64,000 bases of DNA, taken from Robiginitalea sp. GTDB lineage: Bacteria > Bacteroidota > Bacteroidia > Flavobacteriales > Flavobacteriaceae. The notes beneath the pieces are model-generated. The model saw only the letters and a program-made list of their open reading frames with translations, did not search any database and was not told where the DNA came from. Location of the stretch: positions 62,001 through 126,000 of the forward strand of contig JAHEJJ010000001.1 in the NCBI GenBank assembly GCA_024638915.1, given 5' to 3'. Position numbers and translations under genes: made by a program. Position 1 is the stretch's first letter. Each line of letters begins with the position of its first letter. Below, piece after piece: positions 24,414 to 27,689 of the stretch.

Positions 24414-25022
24414 ATGGCTTTTGAATTACCTGATCTTCCATATGCATACGACGCATTGGAACCCCATATCGATGCTAGAACTATGGAGATTCACCATACA
24501 AAGCATCATAATGGATACACTACAAAACTCAATGGAGCGATTGAAGGAACATCACTCGCAAACTTGTCTATAGAAGATATTCTAAAGAATCTTGACATGA
24601 GCAATACCGCTGTTAGAAATAATGGTGGCGGTTATTATAACCATTGTCTTTTCTGGGAAGTGATGTCTCCCGATGGAGGAGGAGAACCCGGTGGCGAAAT
24701 AGGGGCTGCGATATCCGAATCATTTGGCACTTTCGGTTCCTTCCGCGAAAAGTTCAGTAGCGCAGCAGCAACCAGATTCGGTTCTGGATGGGCCTGGCTA
24801 TGTGTTCAACCTGGGGGTAAATTGGAGATTTGCTCCACGGCTAATCAGGACAATCCGATTATGCCCGATACAGGATGTGGGGGATTTCCTATACTGGGAC
24901 TCGATGTTTGGGAACACGCCTATTATCTGAATTATCAAAATAGACGGCCTGATTATATCAGTTCCTTTTTCAATATCCTCAATTGGCAAAAAGTTGGAGA
25001 TTTATACCTGGCGAATCAATAA
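24414..25022 (+). CDS. Superoxide dismutase (Fe/Mn family)
   Basis: This enzyme dismutates superoxide to peroxide and oxygen. The four metal ligands are in place: His in MEIHHTKHH (about residue 27-31), His in YYNHCLFW (about 79), and Asp and His in [10 protein letters not shown] (about 162-166). GSGWAWL is the conserved second-shell stretch. The 202-residue length and NNGGGYYNH pattern fit cytoplasmic dimeric Mn- or cambialistic enzymes; metal choice cannot be read safely. It is followed directly by a strong terminator. Confidence 0.95.
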
Positions 25023-25082: not shown

Positions 25083-25090
25083 ATGAATAG

Positions 25091-25160
25091 AAAAGGGCGG
25101 AGAAGACTCCACCCTTTTCGTCCCAAATCTTACCATAAACTTAACCTACTTATGCTATGG
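25091..25160 (-). ncRNA. Tandem sRNA candidate, copy 1
   Basis: A 70-base unit read leftward. The 5' 38 bases begin CCATAGCATAAGTAGG and are shared with the other two copies except for one base (T where they have C, at RNA position 24). This T allows a CCATA/TATGG pairing that would close a hairpin with the loop AGTAGGTTAAG. The 3' half is a terminator-type stem, AAAAGGGTGGAG/CTCCGCCCTTTT, with one mismatch. A TTG-N19-TAATTTAG promoter ends five bases before the first conserved base. No coding potential is kept among the copies, so I infer a small RNA. Confidence 0.7.
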
Positions 25161-25165
25161 CAGTA

Positions 25166-25195
25166 CTAAATTACTGGTATTGTGAGAAATAACAA
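25166..25195 (-). promoter_or_regulatory. Promoter of sRNA copy 1
   Basis: TTG (25195-25193), exactly 19 bases, TAATTTAG (25173-25166) on the minus strand. It is five bases from the conserved CCATAG start. Confidence 0.6.
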
Positions 25196-25294
25196 AGAAT
25201 TTTCAGGAATTTTTAGGCTTTACGAAAGCCCTGGATTTTAGGAATTGAGGATAATTTCCGGGAAGTACAGCATAATCAATTGATAGTCAGCAAT

Positions 25295-25364
25295 AAAAAA
25301 GGCAGAGAGTTCTCTGCCTTTTTTCCCCAAATCTTACCATGAACTTAACCTACTTATGCTATGG
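25295..25364 (-). ncRNA. Tandem sRNA candidate, copy 2
   Basis: A 70-base unit with the same conserved 5' half as copies 1 and 3 (identical to copy 3 over RNA positions 1-40), then a perfect terminator stem, AAAAAAGGCAGAG/CTCTGCCTTTTTT. The stem sequence differs from copy 3 (GGTGGAG/CTCCACC) by two paired changes, C-G to T-A and A-T to G-C, which is covariation in favour of a conserved RNA helix. The -7 box TATTTTTG again lies five bases before CCATAG. It is about 135 bases from copy 1. Confidence 0.75.
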
Positions 25365-25369
25365 TCCTC

Positions 25370-25399
25370 CAAAAATATAGGAATGCCTTCAGGTATTAA
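25370..25399 (-). promoter_or_regulatory. Promoter of sRNA copy 2
   Basis: TATTTTTG (25377-25370) matches TAnnTTTG exactly. TTA replaces TTG 19 bases upstream (25399-25397). Confidence 0.55.
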
Positions 25400-25615
25400 A
25401 AGGTTTTGGATAAAAGTCCTTTTATTCGGATGAAATGCTAGGTTCGAAGGAAAATACTGTATTTCATAAACGAATTTGCGCTTAGATCACAAGATAAATC
25501 ACATAAAAGGGGTTGAACACTTCGAGTCGGTGATCTGAAAAATGATGGACGTATGAGATGAGGATTTCAGACTAAGACGATTTGAGTAAGGAGGGAATCG
25601 GACCTATATAAAAAT

Positions 25616-25686
25616 AAAAAAGGTGGAGAAGCCTCCACCTTTTTTGCCCCAAATCTTACCATGAACTTAACCTACTTATGCTATGG
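25616..25686 (-). ncRNA. Tandem sRNA candidate, copy 3
   Basis: A 71-base unit. The 5' half is the conserved block from CCATAGC to TTTGGGG, followed by a perfect terminator, AAAAAAGGTGGAG/CTCCACCTTTTTT, with loop GCTT. The -7 box TACTTTAG (25699-25692) lies five bases from the conserved start; no good -33 box is seen. An ATG in the conserved block opens short reading frames (MVRFG...), but these diverge in sequence and length and run through the terminator, so a peptide product is unlikely. Confidence 0.72.
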
Positions 25687-25747
25687 CAAGTCTAAAGTAA
25701 ATGGGTTTAAAAGGACCCTATCATAAACCCGATCAAATACACATATT

Positions 25748-25783
25748 ATCGATGAAATGCATAAATTTATGCATTTCATCGAT
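25748..25783. repeat. 36-bp perfect palindrome downstream of purF
   Basis: Bases 25748-25765 and 25766-25783 are exact reverse complements (left arm starts ATCGATGAAATGC). The element lies seven bases beyond the purF stop. As RNA it would form an 18-bp stem with the innermost bases as loop. Neither side has a long T tract, so it is not a textbook terminator. It may still end purF transcripts, protect the 3' end, or bind a dimeric protein. Confidence 0.8.
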
Positions 25784-25790
25784 GTTTTGC

Positions 25791-27689
25791 TTAATAAGCT
25801 CTTTGGTTTTTTCCTTCGAAAAAGTTGATAAAAGCCCTGTTTACCACCTTGTTTCCACCATTGGTGGGATATTCTCCTGTAAAGTACCAATCACCCAGGT
25901 TGCCCGGACAGGCTTTGTGCAGATTTTCGATGGTTTGATATATAATCTTGACTTCAGCCCGGATATCGGCAGGGCTGAGTAATTCGGAAATTTTATCCGA
26001 TATTTCCTGAGGACCGAAAGGGGCATAGAACTCCTTCACTTGGTTCTCAACCTCTTTGTCCTTGTTTTTGAGCTCCGCAACACATTTCTTATATATTTTT
26101 TCGACCAGGTCCAGGCTGCCTCTTTCACGGTGTAATTCGAGGGCAGCTTTGAAGGCAACGAAATCTTCCAATTTGGCCATATCTATCCCGTAACAGTCGG
26201 GATATCTGATTTGAGGGGCCGAGGAGACCACGATGATCTTCTTCGGGGATAACCGATCGAGAATCCTGAGAATACTTTTCCGGAGAGTAGTGCCTCTTAC
26301 AATACTATCGTCGATAATCACCAGATTATCTTCCGGATTTACCGAGCCATAGGATATATCATATACATGGGCCACAAGATCATCTCTGCTGCTGTCCTGG
26401 GTGATGAAAGTTCTCAGTTTGGCGTCTTTGATAGCTACTTTTTCGATCCTTGGCCTGACTTCAAGTATGTTATGAACCTGATCCTGGTTGAGGTCTGTCC
26501 CTAGTGAGAGGATTTGTTCTTCTTTTTGTTTGTTGAGGAAATTTTGAGCTTCCCTTACCATACCTAGAAAAGAAATTTCTGCAGTATTGGGAATATAGGA
26601 GAACACGGTATACTTTATATCATATTTAATCGCCTCGAGGATCTGCGGAAATAACAACCGACCAAGTTTTTTTCGTTCCTGATAGATTTCTTTGTCGCTT
26701 CCTCTTGAAAAATAGATACGCTCAAAAGAACAGGCCTTTCTCTCGGTTGGTTCGAGAATTTCGGACACATCTACCCGACCATTTTTCTTCACAATAATAG
26801 CATGTCCCGGGCTGAGTTCTGTAATATCCTCATATTCTACATTAAAGACGGTTTGTATCGCGGGACGCTCCGAAGCTACCACTACTACTTCTTCGTCCTG
26901 GTAAAAGTATGCGGGCCTGATCCCCGCAGGATCTCTGAGTACAAAGGCATCGCCATGTCCTAAAAGTCCGGCCATGGCATAACCTCCATCCCAATTTTTT
27001 GCCGCTTTTTTCAATATTTTGTTCACCTTTAATCGATCGGCAATAAGCGGGGAGGCATCCATTTTGGAATAGCCTTCTTTTTTGATTTGTTTATACAATT
27101 TTGCCACAGCATCGTCTAAGAAGTGACCAATTTTTTCCATGACCGTAATCGTATCGGCCATTTCCTTTGGATGTTGTCCTAATTGTACCAAATTATCGAA
27201 AAGTTCGGGTGTATTGGTCATGTTAAAATTACCGGCAACGATCAAGTTTCGATGCATCCAATTGTTTTGGCGTAGAAAAGGATGCACATTTTCGATGCTG
27301 TTTTTCCCGAACGTCCCATAGCGCACATGACCAAGCAAGACTTCGGCTACATATGGTATTCTTTTTTTTTGTTGCTGAAGATCATCAGCGATCTCCGGAT
27401 TCTTGTCAAACTCGGTATTGATACGGGTATTTATCTTGTCAAAAATATCCTGAATAGGTTGAGGTTCCACGGATCGAACACGACTCATATAACGCTCGCC
27501 AGCTTGCATGTCTAATTTAATACTGGCAAAACCAGCCCCATCCTGTCCACGATTGTGTTGCTTTTCCATCATCAGGTACATCTTATTTATCCCGTAAAAA
27601 GCTGTACCGTATTTTTCAACATAATACTCCAGGGGTTTAAGCAACCGAATCAGAGAGATTCCACATTCGTGTTTAATGCTATCGCTCAT
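25791..27689 (-). CDS. purF: Amidophosphoribosyltransferase (long Bacteroidota form)
   Basis: The first committed step of purine synthesis: PRPP plus glutamine gives phosphoribosylamine. The glutaminase nucleophile is Cys9 in HECGISLIRLLKP, so a short N-terminal stretch must be removed. RGQDGAGFAS and GHVRYGTFG belong to the Ntn-hydrolase domain. The PRPP loop VIIDDSIVRGTTLR (about residue 445) marks the phosphoribosyltransferase domain. At 632 residues it is about 125 longer than E. coli PurF; the extra length lies in the interdomain region and the C-terminal tail, as in the long Bacteroidota type. It is probably expressed on its own. Confidence 0.92.
   Translation of the reverse strand: MSDSIKHECGISLIRLLKPLEYYVEKYGTAFYGINKMYLMMEKQHNRGQDGAGFASIKLDMQAGERYMSRVRSVEPQPIQDIFDKINTRINTEFDKNPEIADDLQQQKKRIPYVAEVLLGHVRYGTFGKNSIENVHPFLRQNNWMHRNLIVAGNFNMTNTPELFDNLVQLGQHPKEMADTITVMEKIGHFLDDAVAKLYKQIKKEGYSKMDASPLIADRLKVNKILKKAAKNWDGGYAMAGLLGHGDAFVLRDPAGIRPAYFYQDEEVVVVASERPAIQTVFNVEYEDITELSPGHAIIVKKNGRVDVSEILEPTERKACSFERIYFSRGSDKEIYQERKKLGRLLFPQILEAIKYDIKYTVFSYIPNTAEISFLGMVREAQNFLNKQKEEQILSLGTDLNQDQVHNILEVRPRIEKVAIKDAKLRTFITQDSSRDDLVAHVYDISYGSVNPEDNLVIIDDSIVRGTTLRKSILRILDRLSPKKIIVVSSAPQIRYPDCYGIDMAKLEDFVAFKAALELHRERGSLDLVEKIYKKCVAELKNKDKEVENQVKEFYAPFGPQEISDKISELLSPADIRAEVKIIYQTIENLHKACPGNLGDWYFTGEYPTNGGNKVVNRAFINFFEGKNQRAY

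Follow-up and report, generated by a model that had tools for sequence, protein, structure and literature searches.

The Qrr sRNAs of Vibrio are encoded in several copies whose effector regions are almost the same, and the copies supply one pool of these RNAs from different promoters. Their genes are mostly dispersed, and the RNAs are dependent on Hfq and sigma-54. In the Bacteroidota, FopS/GibS of Bacteroides (RF04319; PMC11697453) are multicopy sRNAs of ~70 nt, each copy having a conserved 5' part, a variable terminator, and its own sigma-A promoter. Flavo-1 (RF01705) and 6S-flavo (RF01685) are further noncoding RNAs of Bacteroidota, described by Weinberg et al. 2010 (PMC2864571). In F. psychrophilum, 85 new RNAs named Rfp were mapped in the transcriptome; according to that study, Rfp11, 13, 15, and 18 are conserved in other species, and Rfp18, with at least three stem-loops, pairs via the third (PMC9723704). 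Here, we describe an array of sRNA-like units in Robiginitalea sp. that, like FopS, combines multiple short copies with a conserved 5' part, a variable terminator, and a sigma-A type promoter for each copy.

The window analyzed is the whole stretch of 64,000 nt. Three tandem units of ~75 nt each are located on the minus strand at 25087-25687, bounded by the stops of a purF-like gene and a sod gene. Unit A (25611-25687, predicted start G25687) is the first after the purF-like gene, unit B (25291-25365, predicted start A25365) is in the middle, and unit C (25087-25161, predicted start G25161) is the last and nearest to sod; their covariance model scores are 98.4, 92.9, and 93.6 bits, respectively. 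A 5' block, with C1 at 25686 (unit A), 25364 (unit B), and 25160 (unit C), is followed by a terminator stem. The block and stem are at 25686-25648 and 25645-25616 in unit A, 25364-25326 and 25324-25295 in unit B, and 25160-25122 and 25119-25090 in unit C. Alignment of the three units showed that bases 1-39 are the same apart from C/T at position 24, which is T in unit C, and base 40 is G, G, and A in units A, B, and C. The terminator arms are GGTGGAG/CTCCACC in unit A, GGCAGAG/CTCTGCC in unit B, and GGGTGGAG/CTCCGCCC in unit C. An earlier note on this DNA had reported three same-strand units with a near-identical 5' block and with terminator arms that change together between copies, and both observations are reproduced here. 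In the 3.04-Mb genome of this organism, exactly three copies of the pattern were detected, all in the array, compared with none in the reversed control.

Both neighboring genes are conserved. The gene upstream of the array (25791-27689, minus strand) encodes a 632-aa protein that scored 126 bits against the purF equivalog cut-off of 350; it is a divergent amidophosphoribosyltransferase-like protein that neighbors the array throughout the Flavobacteriaceae. Directly after this gene, at 25747-25784 of the window, there is a terminator-like 17-bp inverted repeat (TATCGATGAAATGCATAAA...). On the other side, the gene for an Fe/Mn superoxide dismutase (24414-25022, plus strand) is convergent to the array.

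The distribution of the family was examined with a covariance model (R1) built from 47 units. Of 149 Flavobacteriaceae genomes, almost every one representing a different genus, 138 had an R1 match (E < 1e-9 in 133 genomes; five weak matches with E of 4e-5 to 5e-4), and the number of matching copies per genome was 1-7, with a mean of 2.6. The conservation across Flavobacteriaceae, which the earlier note had left to such a model, was thus confirmed. Among 197 genomes spread over the class, R1 matches were found in Flavobacteriaceae only, with none outside the family. By blastn with unit A, matches were detected in 27 of 60 relatives. Hosts among the matches listed included Pricia, Zobellia, Maribacter, Muricauda, Eudoraea, Arenibacter, Winogradskyella, Aquimarina, Lacinutrix, Aequorivita, Flavobacterium, and others, and all named hosts among them were Flavobacteriaceae or unplaced Bacteroidota MAGs. 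A few genomes had additional copies outside the array locus by blastn. The purF-like gene flanked the array in nearly all loci fetched, as did sod where the 3-kb stretch reached it, and wherever both flanks were readable the array was always between these two genes. The recurrence of these flanks across the fetched loci indicates a single ancestral locus.

A TAnnTTTG-type box ends exactly five bases before CCAT in all three units, in agreement with the earlier note. These are the -7 boxes TACTTTAG of unit A (25692-25699, minus strand) and TATTTTTG of unit B (25370-25377, minus strand), and TAATTTAG of unit C (25173-25166). The full promoter noted previously in the copy with the lowest coordinates was present in unit C only (25166-25196, minus strand; TTTG at 25196-25193, 19 nt, and the box), and it is strongly conserved between genera. 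Unit A has an upstream element, TTTGATC (25731-25737, minus strand), which is of the TTYRTC type and lies at about -50; that of unit B, TTTTATCCAAAACC (25402-25415, minus strand), is kept in the middle copies of other genera. The sigma-A box (TAnnTTTG) of F. psychrophilum spans -12 to -5, as given in PMC9723704, and the purine immediately preceding CCAT is therefore the probable start of the RNA. The base at this position was G or A in almost every copy.

Homologous units retain a TAnnTTTG-type box, the block, and the terminator. Two block types, one base apart in the linker, were distinguished (ATGGTAAGATTTGGGG and ATGGTAGATTTGGGG). The last copy in type-1 genomes, the one closest to sod, has the strongly conserved promoter TTTGTTATTTCnCACAATACCAGTAATTTAG with a canonical TTTG-N19-box arrangement; the first and middle copies are without this arrangement and have, near -50, an element resembling TTYRTC(T/C/G)AAA. 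Over the 45 nt upstream, last copies differed by 0.19 between genera, compared with 0.60-0.63 between last and other copies within one genome. Across these promoter classes, the blocks were identical save for position 24. Because the promoters diverge while the blocks stay identical, the paralogues are old, differently controlled, and held to one effector. Several inputs for one output would be the clearest mechanistic clue. Elsewhere in the 1.17-Mb sample, the combination of the -50 element and box gave one other match, the same number as in the control.

Compared with the congener, no substitutions were found in the blocks (0/117), compared with 6/101 in the terminators, 22/180 in the 60 nt upstream, and 111/350 in the spacers. 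GTAGG, ATGGTA, and GATTTGGG were practically invariant over 131 units from named genomes, the loci having been picked by an exact 21-nt pattern, with only their further copies unbiased; divergent copies beside the pattern-picked ones retained the same core. At one Flavobacterium-type locus (L138), copies with TAGGTTAGTT for TAGGTTAAGTT in the block lie beside normal copies and are possibly diverged paralogues. In the terminator helix, pairing was 99.7% and 11 of the 12 pairs showed double changes; shuffled and slid controls scored far below the whole structure. The alignment used for covariation was fitted to the structure, and the first MAFFT alignment gave the same covariation. In the terminator, pairing is conserved and nothing else. 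A CCAT/ATGG hairpin, which the earlier note had thought could present the conserved loop, was present in the MFE fold. However, double changes were observed in only 1 of 10 pairs of this helix, in two sequences, and the 45-nt 5' part folded no better than shuffles (z = 0.27). With almost no covariation and shuffle-level folding, this hairpin is not established. These results indicate that selection acts on the start site, the 5' sequence, and the terminator helix, as the earlier note had proposed.

At the gathering score, Rfam 15 detected only a tRNA in the 64-kb window. The 86 sub-threshold matches rested mainly on terminators, and Flavo-1 and 6S-flavo were absent even at E up to 10. The Rfam search suggested in the earlier note thus brought the array to no family's gathering score, the best relevant match, and the nearest known analogue, being FopS. 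The FopS model scored 20.8-21.3 bits on the units, compared with a gathering score of 56, and at E <= 0.01 it detected nothing in the own genome. The array and FopS share the word UUCAUGGUA-(N0-2)-(A)GAUUU, and with 1500 shuffles per type, their local alignment score was reached 4 times for type 1 and 31 times for type 2. By contrast, the first ~20 bases differ, and of the FopS 5' sequence GTGTTTTTCATRGTATTAGATTTAAGGTTA only TTCATGGTA and (A)GATTT are common to both, in order. FopS copies are dispersed in Bacteroides, whereas the array is tandem at one locus. The FopS host has the RRM-1 protein RbpB, and none was found in the own genome; the FopS seed pairs at SusC translation starts, and SusC targeting is not supported for the array. 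On this evidence, the array RNA is not a member of FopS, although it may be a very distant relative. Unlike Qrr, the array has a host in which Hfq was not found, and its boxes are of the sigma-A type. Qrr and the array RNA are not known to be related in sequence.

Pairing of the conserved 5' segment with targets, as envisaged in the earlier note, was sought at gene starts, in leaders, and in the whole sample, and was not found. At 337 own gene starts, contiguous complementarity of at least 8 nt gave 13 cases, compared with 13.8 expected. At 927 gene starts, stable duplexes (<= -10 kcal/mol) were only in weak excess (614 vs 550 ± 32), and no clear enrichment over shuffles was seen. Long complements in the whole 1.17-Mb sample gave 12 matches, compared with 22 in the reversed control. 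Two candidates were rejected: the 12-nt pairing in the rpoD leader was not conserved beyond the genus, and the 13-nt pairing at a lipoprotein start was kept in the congener only, codon conservation explaining it elsewhere. The gene concerned, a putative lipoprotein gene (L305, G000:C17:8106-9149) whose product we take to be DUF6340-like, is complementary to the block at two places close to its start, over 13 nt at +7 and over 12 nt at +69; the congener alone retains these stretches in part, and codons may be the reason.

SusC leaders, taken as the 45 nt ahead of each SusC start codon in relative genomes (L395-L454), were also compared. AACTHAA was detected in 27 of 60 of these leaders, compared with 5-9% of other leaders (four genomes), and AACTTAA was enriched in this first set of 60 (motif AACTTAA/AACTAAC). 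However, AACTTAA was found in 1 of 20 new SusC leaders and in 4 of 20 leaders of genomes in which no sRNA was detected; 6 of these latter 20 had an AACT(A/T/C)AA-type motif. The duplex bias of SusC leaders was likewise present in genomes with and without a detected sRNA. Since the motif also occurs where the sRNA was not detected, it is not counted as evidence of targeting and is probably related to some other aspect of SusC expression.

As to the product of the array, the units are not leaders of sod or purF, because they have their own promoters and terminators, as the earlier note had argued. Own promoter, intrinsic terminator, and conserved noncoding body are all present in the DNA of each unit, as in autonomous sRNA genes. 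A small protein of ~20 codons, beginning at the ATG within the block, is hardly conceivable. In type 1, ATGGTAAGATTTGGG is an open start, but type 2 is short of one block base, which shifts the frame (ATG GTA GAT TTG), and the reading frame runs on into the variable terminator, where pairing rather than codons is selected. Because of this 1-nt indel between block types there is no conserved peptide, and such a product is ruled out. The earlier note had named a freely varying block with a conserved peptide as the case against an sRNA; the opposite was observed, with frames broken and the RNA block retained. The tandem, terminator-bearing units between the convergent purF-like and sod genes could also be repeated insulator or terminator elements or a small mobile repeat. 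This is very improbable, given that the 5' block is better conserved than the terminators and that the promoter box is retained in each unit. A mobile element was rejected, there being no family match in viral contigs, plasmids, or phages, and the copies are mainly at one orthologous locus. We also consider it unlikely that the RNA is already known, as an Rfp RNA of F. psychrophilum or another catalogued RNA outside Rfam. Rfp and array RNAs both come from one bacterial family and are noncoding, some of the 85 Rfp RNAs are conserved across species, and Flavobacterium species carry the array family. However, as described in PMC9723704, Rfp18 has a third stem-loop, whereas the array units have the terminator and at most one weak hairpin; purF and sod are absent from the main text of that paper, and the block string was not found in the literature searched. 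The earlier claim that the system is undescribed stands for Rfam 15 and the searched literature, although one of the 85 Rfp RNAs could be the same RNA.

The main rival to trans-pairing is a protein-binding role. The RNAs would then be decoys or cofactors, the copies raising the dose of a fixed segment that titrates or modulates an RNA-binding protein or polymerase, with a logic resembling that of CsrB or 6S. The conserved stretch is long, near-invariant, and without detectable complementary targets; at ~38 nt it exceeds the usual seed length, and protein binding fits it as well. Multiple identical copies would also suit titration. On the other hand, neither a covarying 5' structure nor a motif repeated within the RNA marks a protein site, and there is no candidate protein. 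Searches of the own genome (98% complete) gave no match to PF17209 (Hfq) or to PF00076 (an RbpB-like RRM-1 protein). We regard this role as possible but rather doubtful. Taken together, we think it probable that the array consists of three autonomous genes of an undescribed Flavobacteriaceae sRNA family, most likely trans-acting by 5' pairing.

For these RNAs we infer transcription, action in trans, and base pairing. Each unit would make an RNA of ~75 nt, with a 5' effector segment followed by a Rho-independent terminator. The predicted effector, GUAGGUUAAGUUYAUGGUA(A)GAUUUGGGG, would be nearly invariant and mostly single-stranded. The last copy would be transcribed from a sigma-A type promoter and the other copies with an extra element near -50. 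Since the promoters of the copies differ, distinct signals can converge on a single supply of one effector. Pairing of the 5' segment would regulate mRNAs in trans, as by the multicopy sRNAs FopS or Qrr. On balance, we lean toward an ancient, near-universal regulator of Flavobacteriaceae, with position-specific promoters in a fixed purF-sod array, that works without Hfq or RRM-1.

Flavobacteriaceae are major marine and freshwater degraders of polysaccharides, and knowledge of how they exert post-transcriptional control is very limited. The array family would clearly add to Rfam. An RNA retained near letter for letter in ~90% of the sampled genera strongly signals a central role and offers a ready handle for finding it.
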